A stretch of DNA of 64,000 nucleotides from [Limnothrix rosea] IAM M-220 (GTDB lineage Bacteria > Cyanobacteriota > Cyanobacteriia > Cyanobacteriales > MRBY01). Below are positions 8,991-16,337 of the stretch, one piece after another (position 1 is the first letter of the stretch; each line of letters begins with the position of its first letter). The notes below the pieces were generated by a model that worked only from the letters and a program-made list of their open reading frames with translations, was not told the DNA's origin and did not search any database. The translations under genes were made by a program, and so were the position numbers. The stretch spans positions 1 to 64,000 of the forward strand of contig NZ_MRBY01000005.1 in assembly GCF_001904615.1 (NCBI RefSeq). Direction: 5' to 3'.

Positions 8991-9314
8991 ATGGCTCGCA
9001 AGAAAATTGTCTATCAAGAATTTGGTTCCGCACCAGAAATAGAAGCACCAGAAGTTGTGGATTTACCGCCAAATCAACAAAATGTCCGTATCCAAGCAAC
9101 ACGCTCTGGTCGCAAGGGTAAAACGGTGACGGTGATCACTGGCTTTCAACATGCCCCTGCCACGTTAGCGAAACTCACGAAACAGCTAAAAAATAAGTGT
9201 GGTGCTGGTGGCACCCTCAAGGATGGTGTGGTCGAAATTCAGGGCGATCGCCGACAACAACTCTTAGAGATACTCACCCAACAGGGCTATAAAGCAAAAA
9301 TTAGCGGCGGTTAG
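8991..9314 (+). CDS. SUI1/eIF1-type translation factor (YciH)
   Basis: A 107-residue SUI1 domain protein. The basic segment VRIQATRSGRKGKTVTVITGF and the GGTLKDGVVEIQGDRRQQLLEIL block are the hallmark of the family. Bacterial members bind the small ribosomal subunit and influence start-codon fidelity; the physiological role in cyanobacteria is not settled. It has no signal peptide. The last 14 bases overlap the end of the convergent gene at 9301. Confidence 0.92.
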   Translation: MARKKIVYQEFGSAPEIEAPEVVDLPPNQQNVRIQATRSGRKGKTVTVITGFQHAPATLAKLTKQLKNKCGAGGTLKDGVVEIQGDRRQQLLEILTQQGYKAKISGG

Positions 9315-9795
9315 CTTGATACTCTTCCTCTAATAGCCAGCGAATCTGCTTTGAAAACTGCTGCAAAGACTTAAACGGATAGATGCGCACAAACTGGGGT
9401 TTGAGGTCACGGAAAAGACTATAGTAGCTATTTTTTTCGTCTTCAAACCGATAAGTCAAAATCGCCTGTTCGGCGATCGCCTCAGGTAATGTCCGCCAAC
9501 TGTTTACCTCAAAGGAGACAGTAAAGCCATATTCCAAACGGGCAGGAAAACGGAGAGGATTATGCTCAGCAGCAGACACAGACTTCGCTGTAAAACTTAA
9601 ATTGTGCAACAGCCCTAGCCATTTCTCACGGTAGAAAAACCAGCCATTGTGGCTATACACTCGCTGGGGGTAAATGCGGTCGAAGGGATTTGCCGCATGG
9701 GGCTGAATGAGTTTATCCGTGGGTATAGCTAGTACGATATTGCCAAAGTCAGCGATCGCCACTTCCCGATAGGGACGCTCTAAAAATAATTCCAT
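9301..9795 (-). CDS. Conserved hypothetical protein
   Basis: A 164-residue soluble protein that I cannot assign to a named family. It is rich in aromatic residues (NGWFFYREKWLGLLHNL near residue 50, SYYSLFRDLKPQFVRIYPF near 120) and ends with a basic helix (QIRWLLEEEYQANRR). No signal peptide or membrane segment is visible. Base composition and HIP1 content match the neighbours, so it looks native. Its 3' end overlaps the SUI1 gene by 14 bases, tail to tail. Confidence 0.7.
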   Translation of the reverse strand: MELFLERPYREVAIADFGNIVLAIPTDKLIQPHAANPFDRIYPQRVYSHNGWFFYREKWLGLLHNLSFTAKSVSAAEHNPLRFPARLEYGFTVSFEVNSWRTLPEAIAEQAILTYRFEDEKNSYYSLFRDLKPQFVRIYPFKSLQQFSKQIRWLLEEEYQANRR

Positions 9796-10084
9796 TTCAA
9801 TTTACCTTCGCCTCAGCAAAAAAATACCCGACAGTTTTTTCCACCACCTTGGGGCGATCGCCCCCCGTGCTCGATTTTGCCTAGTCACCATCAGCCCCGA
9901 AGAACTCGACCTAACACAAAGCAACAGAAAAACGGCTATTGGTATCAAAAGTAACAATATTGCCGATATCCCCCACAAACTCGTTAGGTAAATTCACAGA
10001 ACCGTTACAAAGCTGTACAAACCCTAGAAGTAAGTTGCAATAAAATACAAAATCTCTACATATCTTGAGGCAATAAAACTTGTC

Positions 10085-11008
10085 ATGGCTCAACTGACCG
10101 CTGCAGAAGTTCTCTCCAAGCTCCAAGCCGACGAATCCCTTGCCAATAGCGAACTTAGTGGTCTCGACCTCAGCGGTAAAACCCTTGATTGTGGCAACTT
10201 TTCCAGAGCCTATCTACGCCGTACAAATCTCACATCAGCGTCCTGCATTGGCGTAAACTTTTCTAAAGCAACGCTCATTTTGGCACAACTCAAGTCCTGC
10301 AACCTGACCAAAGCGAATCTTCACCACAGCACCTTTACCCAAGCCGATCTGACCGCAGCCAATCTACAACAAGTTAAGGCAGCCCACGTTAATCTACAGG
10401 GCACAAACTTGTCCCAATGCTTAGGTCGGGGCGGTAATTTTGAAGAAGCAAACTTTAATGAAGCACAAGTCCTCAGGGCCCACCTTGAACGGGCAAATTT
10501 TGTCAAGATTCAAGCCAAACAAGCCGATTTTACAAATGCAAATTTAAACCAAAGCGACCTTAGCCGTAGTCATTGCCAAGGCGCTAATTTTACCGAGGCG
10601 ACCCTGATATCAGCCGACTTAGAACAGGGGGATTTCACCGCGGCGAATTTTACTAAAGCGAATCTCTCTCAGATTAATGCCATTAATACAGTCTTCCATG
10701 AAGGCACTTTTACGGAGACTTGTTTTGATAATGCCCAGCTGGAGTTGGCAAATTTTTCGCAGTCGACGATTTCTGGTGCGACTTTCCGTAATGCATCGCT
10801 GTTTAGTGCATCCCTTGAATATGCCCAGTTGATCAATGTTGATTTTAGGGGCGCGGATTTACGGAGCGCGGTCTTTTTTAAATCAAACCTTGGAGGCTCT
10901 TGTTTTGACCATTGTCGTTTAGAGGGAGCGATATTTGGGGCTGTGACGGGTTTAACTGATGCCCAGCAAGCATTTCTGAAGGACAATGGCGCACTTAATG
11001 TGACTTAA
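10085..11008 (+). CDS. Pentapeptide-repeat protein
   Basis: A 307-residue protein made almost entirely of pentapeptide repeats, A(N/D)LXX, running from about residue 25 to 290 (for example ANLHHSTFTQADLTAANLQQ). Such proteins form right-handed quadrilateral beta-helices. Cyanobacteria have many, mostly of unknown role. The first 20 residues are a short helix, and the tail LTDAQQAFLKDNG is the common cap. There is no signal peptide, so it should be cytosolic. The stop overlaps the convergent ChaN-like gene by four bases. Confidence 0.9.
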   Translation: MAQLTAAEVLSKLQADESLANSELSGLDLSGKTLDCGNFSRAYLRRTNLTSASCIGVNFSKATLILAQLKSCNLTKANLHHSTFTQADLTAANLQQVKAAHVNLQGTNLSQCLGRGGNFEEANFNEAQVLRAHLERANFVKIQAKQADFTNANLNQSDLSRSHCQGANFTEATLISADLEQGDFTAANFTKANLSQINAINTVFHEGTFTETCFDNAQLELANFSQSTISGATFRNASLFSASLEYAQLINVDFRGADLRSAVFFKSNLGGSCFDHCRLEGAIFGAVTGLTDAQQAFLKDNGALNVT

Positions 11009-11901
11009 TTTGTTTCTTTTTTCAGCGCCTCTTCGGACTTCTGGCTCCACCAAAACATATCGGCGATCGCCGAACCATAGACAGTAAATTCTGGCACAGG
11101 GTTAAGGAGTACGATTTGAGTTTCTAAATCCGGCCCCAAACGACGCTCAACGCGATCGGGAATACCATAACCGTAGATCACATGTCCTTGTCCCGCTAAA
11201 ACAACCACTTGTCTCTCAGGATTGAGGATGCGGAAATCGGCGATCGTTGCCGCCATGGTTTCATCCCAAATCACCTGTGCCGTAAAAAAATTATCAAAAT
11301 TAAAATTGCCATGGGCGCTGTGGGCACCGAATGCTCCCTGCACAAAATTACGATAATTATTATTGCTCAAATCCAGTTCACTAACAGGCGGAATATGCAC
11401 CATATCCTCTGCTGTGAGGGCTTCTACCCCGCCACGGGCAACGCGACTCACTGTCTCGCCGGGGGCATTGAGCGCTAAAACGGGGATCTTATTTTCCCGG
11501 GCAAATCGCATAATCGGCGCGTAGAGCTCCCAAGGGAAACCCCATAGTTTTTCATATTCACTTTGTTCAACGAATTCAGCCTCCGTAATCTCGCCCGCAA
11601 TATAACTATCTAAAACGGCTTGGTATGGACGCTGGAACATTTCCATCCCGATCACCAAATCAGGGTTTCTCGCGTATAGCTCTTGAATAATCTGTAACTG
11701 AGCAGCATGGTCGCGCTCGCTATCATGCAATTCCCCAAGGAAGACTACATCCGCTGTGGCCAAAGGTTCGATGGATTGCTCCGGCATCGGCGGCAAATCT
11801 GGTATTTCCTGAGAATCTGTACCTTGTAATGCACATCCGGCTGGGGCGATCGCCAACAAACCACTGAGGGCAATGAAACCAATTTGCGGCCTAATCTTCA
11901 T
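11005..11901 (-). CDS. ChaN-family lipoprotein
   Basis: A 298-residue exported protein with a type II signal peptide. The lipobox is APAGC, placing the lipidated cysteine near residue 23. The mature part has the ChaN/DUF399 signature: VVFLGELHDSERDH near residue 55, VIGMEMFQRPYQ near 80 and VVLAGQGHVIYGYGIPDRV near 235. Known ChaN dimers bind haem; whether this one does is inference. A plant chloroplast relative is RETICULATA-unrelated but shares the fold. The 13-bp tandem repeats at 11946-11996 lie directly upstream and may form part of its promoter region. Confidence 0.85.
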   Translation of the reverse strand: MKIRPQIGFIALSGLLAIAPAGCALQGTDSQEIPDLPPMPEQSIEPLATADVVFLGELHDSERDHAAQLQIIQELYARNPDLVIGMEMFQRPYQAVLDSYIAGEITEAEFVEQSEYEKLWGFPWELYAPIMRFARENKIPVLALNAPGETVSRVARGGVEALTAEDMVHIPPVSELDLSNNNYRNFVQGAFGAHSAHGNFNFDNFFTAQVIWDETMAATIADFRILNPERQVVVLAGQGHVIYGYGIPDRVERRLGPDLETQIVLLNPVPEFTVYGSAIADMFWWSQKSEEALKKETN

Positions 11902-11945
11902 AGATTTCTTGGGAAAGAGTAAAAGCTCTAGTTTAAAGCCTTAAC

Positions 11946-11996
11946 TTTAAAATTTGGATTTGAAATCTGGATTTGAAATCTGGATTTAAAATTCGG
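11946..11996. repeat. Four 13-bp direct repeats
   Basis: Four consecutive units at 13-base spacing: TTTAAAATTTGG, TTTGAAATCTGG twice, and TTTAAAATTCGG, each separated by A. The array fills the spacer between the ChaN-like gene start and the end of the next minus-strand gene. It could be a regulator-binding array or simple slippage. Confidence 0.8.
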
Positions 11997-11997
11997 C

Positions 11998-12234
11998 CTA
12001 AAAATTAGGTCGATTGGAAGCTGTATGGAAAGTCAATGTGATCACTAGCGCTAAGACGACGGAGTTGGCCGTGTCACATCCCAAGAGCATGAGACTCTCA
12101 TAGCTCGTTAAACAAACCATTGCAGCTAAACCAATGGGAGTGCTCAGTAGCTCTAGAAATTCACCGACTTGACCCATAAACTCCAAAATCTGGAGAAAAT
12201 ATTTCAGAATAGCCATTGCACTAGCGTGTCTCAT
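11998..12234 (-). CDS. Small hypothetical membrane protein
   Basis: A 78-residue ORF with two hydrophobic stretches: IGLAAMVCLTSYESLMLLG around residues 34-52 and SVVLALVITLTF around 58-69. GAGGAA lies eight bases before the ATG, which supports translation. I recognise no family. It lies between the thioredoxin gene and the ChaN-like gene on the same strand. It may be genuine but could also be a chance ORF. Confidence 0.45.
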   Translation of the reverse strand: MRHASAMAILKYFLQILEFMGQVGEFLELLSTPIGLAAMVCLTSYESLMLLGCDTANSVVLALVITLTFHTASNRPNF

Positions 12235-12280
12235 CTTGTTTCCTCAGGACGAATAAAACTCTTCAATAAAATCAATATGC

Positions 12281-12778
12281 TTAGCCCACAAGGCTACTCA
12301 GGCGTTCGGAGAGTATCTGAAAGGGGACTTTACCAATGAATGTGTCAACCGCCACCTGCTCCTCCTCCAGTAATACGAAATGGGGTACACCCGTTACTTT
12401 ATAGGTTGCAACCGTTGACTGCCACTGGGGATCATCAATGTTTAACATGACAAAATTGATGGCCGCGCCAAAACGCTCATGTGCTTTTGCTAACGTCGGA
12501 GCCATGGCCTGACAGGTCATGCACCAATCAGCGTAGAACTCAATAAACGCTGGCTTACCATTGGCGATCGCCTCACCATAGGGAACAGATTGGGCAGCTA
12601 TGGCCGGTAAAGTCATTAGGTCAGCGACCGTAGAGGTTTGTGCTCCCTGGACTGGACGAGTCAACACAAAGGTTCCCCCCAGAAAGAAAATAACTAAAGC
12701 AACGGCGATCGCCCCAATATTCCGACTCACTCTGTTTTTTGGCAAAATGCATAACCCCCACCTCAAGGCATGTAACAA
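12281..12778 (-). CDS. Membrane-anchored thioredoxin-like protein (TxlA/HCF164 type)
   Basis: A 165-residue protein with an N-terminal transmembrane anchor (IGAIAVALVIFFLGGTFVL, residues 21-39) and a thioredoxin domain. The active site is WCMTC at residues 85-89, followed by the cis-proline segment VTGVPHFVLL near 130. HCF164 and TxlA face the thylakoid lumen or periplasm and pass electrons to apocytochromes during cytochrome c and b6f assembly. That role is inferred, and is strengthened by the divergent CcsA-like gene starting at 13164. It begins three bases after the stop of a 47-residue membrane ORF, so it is likely the last gene of a three-gene unit. Confidence 0.85.
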   Translation of the reverse strand: MLHALRWGLCILPKNRVSRNIGAIAVALVIFFLGGTFVLTRPVQGAQTSTVADLMTLPAIAAQSVPYGEAIANGKPAFIEFYADWCMTCQAMAPTLAKAHERFGAAINFVMLNIDDPQWQSTVATYKVTGVPHFVLLEEEQVAVDTFIGKVPFQILSERLSSLVG

Positions 12779-12781
12779 ATC

Positions 12782-12925
12782 TTAACCTAATTGTTGATAG
12801 TAATAAACCAAGGCGATGGGCATCACTAACATGACGAAGAAAATTGCCACAAAAAAGAGGTGACTGGTCAGCCAAACTGCCCGTAACTTGTGAATTAATA
12901 ACCCCTTACTAAAAACAGACTGCAT
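12782..12925 (-). CDS. 47-residue single-span membrane protein
   Basis: Small ORF found by reading the spacer. It starts MQSVFSKGLLIHK, continues with a basic segment and one long hydrophobic helix (SHLFFVAIFFVMLVMPIALV, residues 21-40), and ends YYYQQLG. It begins nine bases after the stop of the 45-residue ORF and ends three bases before the thioredoxin start. Tight packing between genes and the clear positive-inside layout argue that it is real. The family is not recognised. It may assist the thioredoxin or the cytochrome assembly machinery. Confidence 0.65.
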   Translation of the reverse strand: MQSVFSKGLLIHKLRAVWLTSHLFFVAIFFVMLVMPIALVYYYQQLG

Positions 12926-12934
12926 CCAAGGGAG

Positions 12935-13072
12935 CTAGGCAAACTGCCGTCGCGGCGATTCTAAGACGCCAGTCCCAGCAACAACACCGACAACCGCCGT
13001 TAACGTCACCGCAAAAAAGACCCAGAGAAAAACAGCATTAAAATTTAAACCCTTTTTTTGATGCCCTAACAT
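12935..13072 (-). CDS. 45-residue single-span membrane protein
   Basis: Small ORF at the head of the thioredoxin unit. A polar, basic N-terminus (MLGHQKKGLNFN) precedes one hydrophobic helix (AVFLWVFFAVTLTAVVGVVA, residues 13-32), and the tail is GTGVLESPRRQFA. The stop lies nine bases before the next start. The size and arrangement resemble small assembly or stabilising subunits of membrane complexes. I recognise no family. It is divergent from the CcsA-like gene, with 91 bases between the two starts. Confidence 0.62.
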   Translation of the reverse strand: MLGHQKKGLNFNAVFLWVFFAVTLTAVVGVVAGTGVLESPRRQFA

Positions 13073-13163
13073 TAAAAAAATTATCCTAAACGCGGCGATC
13101 GCCAAATAATAGAACTATCCAGATTTATTCCCCCATACAGTCCACCCACGAATCGGTTAAACC

Positions 13164-14876
13164 ATGAAAGCCCCAAACGCGATCAAATTCATCATTGGTC
13201 TATGCCTCGGCTGTATGCTGCTGTTCTTTCCCTTTACGCAGTTTCAGCCCGACGGACTGGAGTCATTACGGACTTTAACAGTGCAGCTCGACGGTCGTAA
13301 AAAGCCCCTCGATACCGTTGCCAAAGAAACCGTCGCCAAGATTCACGGTTCGACCAGTTACCAAACCGTCAACGGCGAAAAAGAGGATTACCTCAGCACC
13401 TATCTGGAAATATGGTTTAACACCCGCAATTGGAATGAAGAGCCCTTTGTGCTGGTTAGCTATCGCCCGCTGAAGGAATTGACCGATCTGGACTTGGAGC
13501 AAAAACATTTTGCCTTCCAAGAGCTGATGACCAATAAAAAATTGGCGGCAGTGGTGAATATTGCCCACGAAAAGCAATTTAACGAGCAGGACTTAAACCG
13601 TGACGAGCGCGAAGCCCTAACCATCGAAGAGCGCTTAAATCTCCTTTACCATTCCGTCGGCGACCAAAGCCTACCGATTGTGCCCCACCCTACGGATATC
13701 AAAGGGAAATGGGTAGGTTTTAATCATGCAACTGCACTGTACGACGTTGAAGAATTTGCGCCCCTCGTCGCCAATTTTGCGATGATTCAGCAAACTGTTT
13801 TTAATGGCGGTCTAGATCATCTCGCGGCGTTATCGGACATCACGGATAGCTTAAAAGCTGGTTTACGGAGTCTCAGTCCAGAGATTTATCCCAGCGATTT
13901 TGTCCTGGCGCGGGAAACTCATTTTAATCATTTTCACCCCTTTGCAAAGGCTTGGCAGCTTTATGGTTTAGCTTTTATCGCCATGCTCATTAGCCTCTGG
14001 GTAAAACCTTGGAATATTTATTGGAGTGCCATGGGTTTGTTTAGTGCGGGCATTGCTGTCCAAACCTATGGTTTTTTCCTCCGCATGCAAATCGCGGGTC
14101 GCCCTCCCGTCACCAATATGTATGAGTCGGTGGTTTGGGTGGGTTTCGGTATTGCGGCGATCGCCCTGACCTTTGAGCTGATTACCCGCAACCGTTATTA
14201 CATTTTGGCAGCAGCGCCTTTATCAGTGATGTGTTTACTGTTGGCCGCTAGCTTGCCTGCAGTTCTTGACCCCAGTATTTCGCCCCTTGTGCCTGTTCTC
14301 CGCGATAATTTCTGGCTGAGTATCCATGTTCCGACGATCGCCCTTGGTTATGCCAGTTTTGCCCTTGCAATGGGATTAGGCCATGTTGCCCTTGGGAATT
14401 ATCTTTTTACCCCCAATGCGAAGCCGCGTCTCAAAATGCTTTCCCAGCTCAATTACCATGTGTTGCAAGTGGGTGTCCTGTTACTCACTGCCGGCATTAT
14501 TCTCGGTGGCATCTGGGCGCACCTCTCTTGGGGACGTTTCTGGGGGTGGGATCCCAAAGAAACTTGGGCACTCATTGCGCTGCTCTGTTACCTTGCGCCG
14601 CTCTATGGCCGTCTGGTGGGCTGGATCGGTGATTTTGGCGTTCATATGGCCAGTATTGTTTCTTTTAATGCAGTGTTGATGGCTTGGTATGGCGTGAACT
14701 TTGTTCTAGGCACTGGTTTACATAGCTATGGCTTTGGGACTGGTGGGTCTGAATTGCTAATTGCTGGGGTTGTGGGGCTAGACCTTTTACTCGTTCTAAT
14801 TACGGCAACGAAGCACAAAGGTTGGTTCAAATCTTCTGAAACGGAACCTTTAACCACCGTCGAAAATCCCAACTAA
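13164..14876 (+). CDS. Long CcsA-like cytochrome c assembly protein
   Basis: A 570-residue membrane protein. The C-terminal half (about residues 265-550) has eight or so membrane spans and the tryptophan-rich haem-handling motif WGRFWGWDPKETW at residues 456-468, diagnostic of the CcsA/CcmF/ResC group. The N-terminal half has one membrane span (residues 8-27), then a soluble domain of about 230 residues. That domain begins with LTVQLDGRKKPLDTVAKET, a motif I associate with the long CcsA proteins of Bacteroidetes and planctomycetes. Typical cyanobacterial CcsA is about 330 residues and lacks this domain. It is therefore either a second, atypical CcsA or an acquired one. The divergent thioredoxin unit points to haem attachment or thiol chemistry on the lumen or periplasm side. 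Confidence 0.8.
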   Translation: MKAPNAIKFIIGLCLGCMLLFFPFTQFQPDGLESLRTLTVQLDGRKKPLDTVAKETVAKIHGSTSYQTVNGEKEDYLSTYLEIWFNTRNWNEEPFVLVSYRPLKELTDLDLEQKHFAFQELMTNKKLAAVVNIAHEKQFNEQDLNRDEREALTIEERLNLLYHSVGDQSLPIVPHPTDIKGKWVGFNHATALYDVEEFAPLVANFAMIQQTVFNGGLDHLAALSDITDSLKAGLRSLSPEIYPSDFVLARETHFNHFHPFAKAWQLYGLAFIAMLISLWVKPWNIYWSAMGLFSAGIAVQTYGFFLRMQIAGRPPVTNMYESVVWVGFGIAAIALTFELITRNRYYILAAAPLSVMCLLLAASLPAVLDPSISPLVPVLRDNFWLSIHVPTIALGYASFALAMGLGHVALGNYLFTPNAKPRLKMLSQLNYHVLQVGVLLLTAGIILGGIWAHLSWGRFWGWDPKETWALIALLCYLAPLYGRLVGWIGDFGVHMASIVSFNAVLMAWYGVNFVLGTGLHSYGFGTGGSELLIAGVVGLDLLLVLITATKHKGWFKSSETEPLTTVENPN

Positions 14877-15014: not shown

Positions 15015-16337
15015 TCAGTCAAGTTTGATGCCACGAATCGAAAAATCCAGTAGCTCCATGGGATGCCAGAGTTGAATCTCTTCACCTTGCTGTTGCAGGT
15101 GTTTTTTTATTTGGAGACTACAACCCGGATTCGCTGAAATAATCACCTTTGCACCAGTTTTTGATAGATTCTTAGCTTTGCGATCGCCGAGCTCATCGGC
15201 AATATCTGGTTGCAACAGATTAAAAACACCAGCGCTGCCACAACATAAAGTATGGTCTGCCGCTTCGCGCAGTTGGACATGGGGAATAGAACGGAGTAAC
15301 TGACGGGGTTGCTCCGAGATTTTTTGGCCGTGGAGTAGATGGCACGCATCTTGGTAGGCAACGGGTAACGGTGCGTCAGTTACCGGAGACAACTCAGCAG
15401 TTAAGCCCACTTCAGCCAGAAATTCTTGTACATCCCGTACTTTTGCCGCAAACTCTACAGCTTTTTCTGCATAGTCGGGATCGTCTTTTAAAATTCGGCC
15501 ATATTCCTTGAGGGTATGTCCACAGCCGGCGGCGTTAATCATAATAAAATCAACATTTTGGTCGGCAAAACTATCAATCATTTGACGGGCGATCGCCTGA
15601 GCCTGCCCATCTTGACCTTGGTGAGCCGGTAAAGCGCCGCAACATCCTTGGCTTGTGGGAATGACAACTTCACAGCCGTTGGCCGTTAAAATCCTTGCCG
15701 TCGCTTCATTGACTGGCGAGAAAAAGAGCCGTTGCACACAGCCTAAAAGCATCCCCACCCGATATCTTTGTTCACCTTTTGCTGCAATCACTGTGGGCAA
15801 ATTTTGTTTGGCTTGGGCAAGATTAACCCTAGGCAAAATCATTTCCATGGCCTCTAGCCTTGCCGAAATTTTTAAGATTCCCAACTTACGCACAAGCCAC
15901 TGCAAACCAGAATTTTGGTAGAACCACAGCAACGGCAATAATAATCTCAACCTTGCCGGGTAGGGAAATAAATTAAAAATCAGCCAACGAAAGAGGCGAT
16001 CGCCCAACGGTCTTTGATAATTTCGTTCAATTTGGGATCGCATGGAAGTTAAAAGTTCGTCATAACTCACCCCCGACGGACAAGCCGAAGTACAGGCCAG
16101 ACAACCCAAACAGCTATCAAAATGCTTTACTGTCGCTGCATTAATTTCCGCCTCACCCTTGGCGATCGCATCCATTAGATAAATACGACCGCGGGGAGAA
16201 TCCATCTCTGAACCTAAAACCCTATAGCTTGGACAAGTATCCAAACAAAACCCACAGTGCACACAGCTGTCGATCTCCTTTTGCTCTGGCGGATTGGCCG
16301 CATCAAAACTATTTATTTGAGGTTCAGAAAGAGTCAT
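15015..16337 (-). CDS. glcF: Glycolate oxidase/dehydrogenase iron-sulphur subunit GlcF
   Basis: A 440-residue electron-transfer subunit that works with the flavin subunit GlcD to oxidise glycolate from photorespiration. Two 4Fe-4S motifs are visible: CVHCGFCLDTCPS near residue 25 and CLGCLACTSACPSG near residue 76. Two cysteine-rich CCG modules follow: GCCGALPAH near 230 and CCGSAGVFN near 355. The length and layout match GlcF, though other members of the family serve lactate or anaerobic glycerol-3-phosphate oxidation. No glcD is adjacent, which is usual when the subunits are unlinked in cyanobacteria. Confidence 0.85.
   Translation of the reverse strand: MTLSEPQINSFDAANPPEQKEIDSCVHCGFCLDTCPSYRVLGSEMDSPRGRIYLMDAIAKGEAEINAATVKHFDSCLGCLACTSACPSGVSYDELLTSMRSQIERNYQRPLGDRLFRWLIFNLFPYPARLRLLLPLLWFYQNSGLQWLVRKLGILKISARLEAMEMILPRVNLAQAKQNLPTVIAAKGEQRYRVGMLLGCVQRLFFSPVNEATARILTANGCEVVIPTSQGCCGALPAHQGQDGQAQAIARQMIDSFADQNVDFIMINAAGCGHTLKEYGRILKDDPDYAEKAVEFAAKVRDVQEFLAEVGLTAELSPVTDAPLPVAYQDACHLLHGQKISEQPRQLLRSIPHVQLREAADHTLCCGSAGVFNLLQPDIADELGDRKAKNLSKTGAKVIISANPGCSLQIKKHLQQQGEEIQLWHPMELLDFSIRGIKLD

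Follow-up and report, generated by a model that had tools for sequence, protein, structure and literature searches.

An orphaned long CcsA at the apparent deletion scar of a multihaem cytochrome cluster in [Limnothrix rosea] IAM M-220

Cyanobacterial c-type cytochromes are usually regarded as mono-haem photosynthetic or respiratory proteins, and their housekeeping synthesis is the task of the standard System II pair, CcsA and Ccs1. Here, we describe a locus of the cyanobacterium [Limnothrix rosea] IAM M-220, in which a second, CcsA-like protein of 570 residues lies opposite a thioredoxin gene and two very short open reading frames (ORFs). The locus occupies positions 12,281 to 14,876 of “the window”, i.e., the whole 64,000-nucleotide stretch that was analysed (contig NZ_MRBY01000005.1, positions 1 to 64,000, forward strand). 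The long protein is most readily compared to the CcsBA fusion synthases, represented by H. hepaticus CcsBA (PDB 7s9y) and by 25vk. According to the respective papers, H858 of H. hepaticus CcsBA is the haem ligand TM-His1 (PMC11322641), synthase function needs all four His (PMC11322641; PMC6299221), and TM-His2 is located in CcsB (PMC10663686). In Wolinella succinogenes, additional CcsBA isoenzymes, NrfI (CXXCK) and CcsA1 (CX15CH), are reported to serve multihaem cytochromes with unusual haem sites (PMC12285233; PMC6976685).

The explanation that we favour, with a probability of roughly 87%, is that most of a larger multihaem cytochrome cluster was deleted here and left the locus as its scar, with the two short ORFs as the stop-split leftover of a membrane gene and the long CcsA orphaned and probably inactive. 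The genome comparison covered 60 genomes, namely the window strain’s own and those of 59 relatives, among which G005 and G004 (loci L035 and L036) belong to the same genus; the intact cluster of the relatives is referred to as the module. The elements of the locus are as follows:

12281..12778, minus strand: thioredoxin-like protein with a hydrophobic N-terminal stretch and WCMTC (PF00085, E 2.8e-17; 70% identity to the G005 module thioredoxin)
12782..12925, minus strand: 47-codon ORF, the C-terminal portion of the remnant, last conserved His replaced by Pro (ORF list, tblastn, alignment)
12791..13057, minus strand: 3' remnant of the four-His membrane (b-type cytochrome-like) gene, holding both short ORFs (tblastn)
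12935..12937, minus strand: in-frame TAG that breaks the remnant up into ORFs of 45 and 47 codons (tblastn, sequence)
12935..13072, minus strand: 45-codon ORF, a chimera whose ATG and first codons are antisense to the ccsB 3' end and whose remainder is remnant (blastn, junction sequence)
13052..13056, no strand: T-run at the deletion junction, with the membrane-gene remnant to one side and the 3' end of ccsB to the other (blastn to G005, junction sequences)
13057..13089, plus strand: end of the otherwise deleted dedicated ccsB, comprising its last 10 codons and the stop (DNA alignment to the G005 ccsB 3' end)
13164..14876, plus strand: orphan long CcsA, 570 residues, corresponding to the CcsA half of a System II synthase of the split CcsBA type, with a periplasmic domain and a Cytochrom_C_asm/WWD domain (PF01578, E 1.3e-31; phmmer to PDB)
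14604..14606, plus strand: codon 481, TAT, which encodes Tyr where homologues have the haem ligand TM-His1 (homologue alignment)

All ORFs that the original prediction had described from the sequence are present where it placed them (the thioredoxin with WCMTC, the 45- and 47-codon ORFs and the 570-residue ORF), and the gaps of 3 and 9 bases are correct. The two short ORFs, which it took for overlooked membrane micro-proteins, are together the last third of a four-His membrane protein of ~200–237 residues, fused on the 5' side to antisense ccsB DNA. In a tblastn search with the intact 237-residue membrane protein of G005, residues 152–237 matched positions 13051–12794 (minus strand) at 75.6% identity (E 9e-31), within a single frame that contains one stop. 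This stop, the TAG at 12937–12935, separates the 45- from the 47-codon ORF, and since both share the frame, the 9-base gap amounts to three in-frame codons. Searching the strain’s whole genome recovered the membrane gene only as this fragment, which covers 88 of 237 residues and carries the one TAG. One of four invariant His is kept, two being deleted and the last one changed to Pro, and an invariant Glu has become Gly. The larger gene is found in seven other genomes of the 60, the fragment in the strain’s own genome only. Reading the short ORFs as new protein families was rejected: neither has a Pfam or NCBIfam match above cut-off, and the match to the G005 membrane protein explains them. The micro-proteins are an artefact of gene decay, and as no relative was found to carry the 45- and 47-residue ORFs as micro-ORFs, a test named in the original prediction itself, that claim has to be withdrawn.

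The deletion that produced this arrangement measures ~6.2 kb in comparison with G005 and joined the final third of the membrane gene directly to the 10 codons at the end of ccsB. In blastn alignments, the left block ends at 13051 and the right block begins at 13055, within the final ccsB codons, while the two ends lie ~6.2 kb apart in G005. The bases on one flank of the junction correspond to the membrane gene and those on the other flank to the 3' end of ccsB, and the ATG of the 45-codon ORF (also listed as a 56-residue ORF starting at TTG 13105) sits in antisense ccsB sequence. Lost with the deletion were the globin, the pentahaem and hexahaem cytochromes (cyt1 and cyt2), the Tll0287-type haem lipoprotein, as well as the greater part of the membrane gene and almost the whole of ccsB. 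Searches of all contigs of the strain gave no match for cyt1, cyt2 or the dedicated CcsB, and the cluster-type Rieske protein is absent from this genome, its best match being a 37% paralogue. Candidates for module genes elsewhere in the genome were rejected as paralogues, i.e., a globin at C18 (26–29% identity to the module globin) and Tll0287-type genes at C38 and C36, the latter pair because genomes lacking the module have similar ones, a criterion other than a tree. The remnant has a ratio of nonsynonymous to synonymous differences per site (pN/pS) of 0.21–0.26, compared to 0.19 between intact copies, and this resemblance suggests that the deletion is probably recent. Beside the junction, positions 13055–13213 are ~95% identical to G005, intergenic DNA included, in comparison to 81–90% for most of ccsA; a recombination patch or a conserved regulatory stretch is possible.

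The 570-residue protein was correctly recognised as CcsA-like in the original prediction. Pfam and NCBIfam profiles assign residues 295–523 to the CcsA/CcsB(ResC) superfamily (PF01578, E 1.3e-31), with the NCBIfam CcsB equivalog TIGR03144 scoring 151.4 bits, under its curated cut-off of 187.6. Against PDB sequences, phmmer aligned residues 36–548 to the second periplasmic domain plus the CcsA half of CcsBA (25vk, E 1e-47; 7s9y, E 7.8e-46). The soluble N-terminal part, also predicted earlier, matches these structures by itself (residues 41–194 to 25vk, E 2.8e-7; residues 36–184 to 7s9y, E 8.5e-6) and is therefore the known periplasmic domain of the fusions. Judged by these alignments, the protein is, together with its periplasmic domain, the CcsA half of a System II synthase of the CcsBA type. 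It shares with the fusions the WWD region and the equivalents of P-His1 and P-His2, and the dedicated CcsB of the relatives aligns to their CcsB half. The cyanobacterial version differs in being split into two genes, and the window in lacking ccsB and carrying Tyr at TM-His1. Identity is 94% to the G005 homologue and 89% to that of G004. The long form is present in nine of the 60 genomes (G000, G004, G005, G017, G021, G038, G046, G048 and G056), which rules it out as the usual CcsA of the clade, in line with the original prediction. The same genome also encodes, outside the locus, the standard CcsA and Ccs1/ResB for which a check had been advised. Standard CcsA–Ccs1 shares the superfamily, the chemistry and the PF01578 and PF05140 domains with the long pair, whereas standard CcsA has only 348 residues here and no N-terminal periplasmic domain.

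What argues against activity of the long CcsA is the state of its haem ligands. The WWD region is retained (WGRFWGWD), as are H388 and H520, which align to H761 (P-His1) and H897 (P-His2) of H. hepaticus CcsBA 7s9y, positions being counted in the phmmer alignment. Residue 481, which aligns in the same way to H858, the TM-His1, is Tyr in the window protein only, whereas all 31 long homologues that cover this column have His (28 after removal of three same-contig duplicates; the alignment has 32 homologue rows, one of them a fragment without the column); the G005 codon is CAC. Moreover, the dedicated partner CcsB is absent from the genome, where only the standard Ccs1 is found. With Tyr481, the window CcsA is classed as a derivative rather than a working synthase, and because both partner and TM-haem ligand are lost, it would most likely no longer be a cytochrome c synthase. 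We consider its inactivity as a synthase quite likely.

Several observations weigh against this conclusion. The window ORF is intact, and its ratio of nonsynonymous to synonymous substitution rates (dN/dS) is 0.036 in comparison to G005. When the codon changes are polarised by means of G004, the window branch has 6 nonsynonymous and 48 synonymous ones and the G005 branch 5 and 79, and replacements are similar on both (16 window-specific and 13 G005-specific residues), so that decay is not visible in the rates. The window protein departs from three invariant columns, which is not extreme, as other homologues depart from up to five. Finally, G021 has a long CcsBA without the module cytochromes and without standard System II, i.e., dedication to the module is not exclusive. 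The orphan CcsA might still be working by pairing with the standard Ccs1, which is present and would give TM-His2, with Tyr481 serving as ligand or the loss being tolerated; the retained WWD region, H388 and H520 would fit. We regard this as unlikely, since TM-His1 is invariant in the 31 homologues and required in tested CcsBA proteins, the dedicated CcsB is missing and the likely clients are gone. As the rates of the remnant suggest a recent event, the low dN/dS may date from before the deletion.

Two further explanations were weighed. Genuine single-span micro-proteins, forming a thiol or haem module together with the thioredoxin and the CcsA-like protein, would agree with the tight packing of the two ORFs and with the one hydrophobic stretch that each contains. 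This is extremely improbable for a single frame of a larger protein, the full gene of which occurs in the seven other genomes and matches over most of its length in 49 loci (see below), while the fragment is confined to this genome and the start of the first ORF is antisense ccsB. Alternatively, the deletion and the stop might stem from errors in sequencing or assembly, the whole cluster being present in the actual genome; indeed, the genome is a draft (4.07 Mb, 92 contigs). Completeness is 100, however, the missing genes are in no contig, and the His-to-Pro and Glu-to-Gly changes, the TAG and H481Y of CcsA would all need to be errors, which makes this very unlikely. A deletion scar with an orphaned CcsA hence remains the preferred explanation.

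The module itself is best seen in the relatives, where the long CcsA mostly has a dedicated ResB-type CcsB before it and a Rieske protein after it. This block usually adjoins a row of globin, cyt1, cyt2, Tll0287-type lipoprotein, membrane protein and thioredoxin; in G048 (L037) and G056 the cytochrome row is on a separate contig, and in G056 so is CcsB. The dedicated CcsB occurs in eight of 60 genomes, i.e., in every long-CcsA genome but that of the window strain. Both cyt1 and cyt2 are found in the same six genomes, all six of which belong to the nine with long CcsA (hypergeometric 1.7e-6, kinship ignored). The distinct haem-attachment module proposed in the original prediction is partly supported: relatives have the homologue of the 570-residue protein in such a locus, while the window holds a remnant from which CcsB, the cytochromes and the Rieske protein are missing. 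When the membrane-protein alignment was used to scan 84,980 species genomes, 49 loci were obtained, every title being cyanobacterial, with matches over most of the gene’s length. In the sequence available for these loci, many of which end at contig boundaries, the counts are 48 for Tll0287, 47 for cyt2, 44 for cyt1, 41 for globin, 36 for thioredoxin, 26 each for CcsB and long CcsA, and 21 for Rieske. Among cultured strains, Leptolyngbya sp. PCC 7375 bears the module. Globin ORF lengths range from single to double forms, and the G005 module globin (L035:12062–13081) consists of two globins in tandem, followed by a hydrophobic tail at the C-terminus. In G017 (L040) the long CcsA contains an in-frame TAA, and in G004 (L036) CcsB is interrupted and the thioredoxin frameshifted; these may be further decay or assembly errors in the same cluster.

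The haem-binding motifs of the module proteins are well conserved. Six CXXCH motifs are present in all 42 length-filtered ORFs of the hexahaem cyt2, four CXXCH plus one CX4CH in all 41 of the pentahaem cyt1, and one CXXCH in all 48 Tll0287-type lipoproteins, which match PF11845. The membrane protein has four conserved His in 35 of 35 aligned sequences (of 44 length-filtered ORFs), arranged as two pairs with a 14-residue spacing, and each pair falls within a single predicted helix. Such spacing of paired His within helices is a trait of b-type cytochromes and suggests that the membrane protein binds two putative b haems. Its Pfam matches are under cut-off, and its structural model (mean predicted local distance difference test score, pLDDT, 72.7) gave no significant fold match in Foldseek (best E 1.1); superoxide oxidase 5oc0 (Z 8.1, root-mean-square deviation (rmsd) 4.1, 132 aligned) and FdnI 1kqf (Z 7.5, rmsd 4.8, 131 aligned) appear amid unrelated helical bundles. 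The AlphaFold model of the hexahaem cytochrome has a mean pLDDT of 48.7. PDB profile searches with cyt2 gave weak matches to nitrite- and hydroxylamine-type multihaem enzymes (best E 2e-8), those with cyt1 and the membrane protein nothing useful. With the haem-containing Cache proteins of the Tll0287/DUF3365 type, the module lipoprotein shares PF11845 and one CXXCH, but it belongs to a fixed multihaem cluster. For other members, an NO-sensing or redox role is reported, some of them binding NO (PMC12889525).

Besides the module, the long pair may have a broader use. In G021 (L038) and G048, which are of one genus and both ~98% complete, standard CcsA and Ccs1 were not found in a search for PF01578 (11 genomes) and PF05140 (4 genomes), but only long CcsB–CcsA. 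It follows that ordinary CXXCH cytochromes, too, are probably within reach of the long pair.

Taken together, the events might be pictured as follows. In the intact system, the dihaem b-type protein would draw electrons from the quinone pool and pass them to the membrane-anchored pentahaem and then to the hexahaem cytochrome. The clients of the long synthase would be the module cytochromes, including the pentahaem protein, whose CX4CH site may be a client analogous to the unusual haem sites of Wolinella. As with NrfI and CcsA1, an extra CcsBA isoenzyme stands beside multihaem cytochromes with an unusual site, but this site would be CX4CH in a pentahaem protein and the hosts are oxygenic phototrophs; client specificity is proposed here from gene content. 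As the hexahaem profile is weakly of the hydroxylamine/nitrite type and Tll0287 relatives bind NO in some cases, nitrogen oxides may be seen as a lead, not a result. In the window strain, the ~6.2-kb deletion left the ends of the membrane gene and of ccsB joined, with standard CcsA and Ccs1 elsewhere in the genome doing the housekeeping work.

The surroundings of the scar bear traces of the module, too:

10085..11008, plus strand: pentapeptide-repeat protein, common neighbour of the module (PF00805; family in 32 of 49 module loci)
11005..11901, minus strand: ChaN-like haem-binding lipoprotein adjoining the module (PF04187, E 4.2e-71; equivalent position in G005 and G004; 7 of 49 loci)
11998..12234, minus strand: conserved hydrophobic small ORF of 78 residues, module flank (85% identity in G005; 14 of 49 module loci)

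A Pfam search with the 78-residue ORF gave no match; it is a stronger small-protein candidate than either micro-ORF. The thioredoxins of relatives carry WCTTC in 28 of 34 cases, compared to WCMTC in the window. Relative to the G004 locus, window positions 8991–14876 have the ChaN-to-CcsA block inverted beside the SUI1–pentapeptide genes, and in place of the missing Rieske gene a GlcF-like glycolate oxidase gene (15015–16337) comes next.

In the titles and abstract openings that were surveyed, neither the module nor a second cyanobacterial CcsBA is described, although this does not establish their absence from print. For the window strain, two false micro-proteins are removed, and the long CcsA is a real, accessory and orphaned protein that is probably inactive. 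More generally, some cyanobacteria possess a second System II synthase of different structure, which is linked to a cluster for multihaem electron transfer. With the window strain as a natural cluster deletion and G021 and G048 as natural replacements of the standard synthase, the client specificity of haem lyases becomes testable in a phototroph. The part most worth following is the intact cluster of the relatives. We would give even odds to the idea that diverse cyanobacteria carry an undescribed membrane redox module, in which the hexa- and pentahaem c-type cytochromes, the Tll0287-type haem lipoprotein and a membrane protein with two b haems would hold ~14 haems, joined by a single or tandem globin and matured by its own split CcsBA, which would be able to load CX4CH and, having replaced standard CcsA–Ccs1 in one genus, could serve photosynthetic cytochromes, too.

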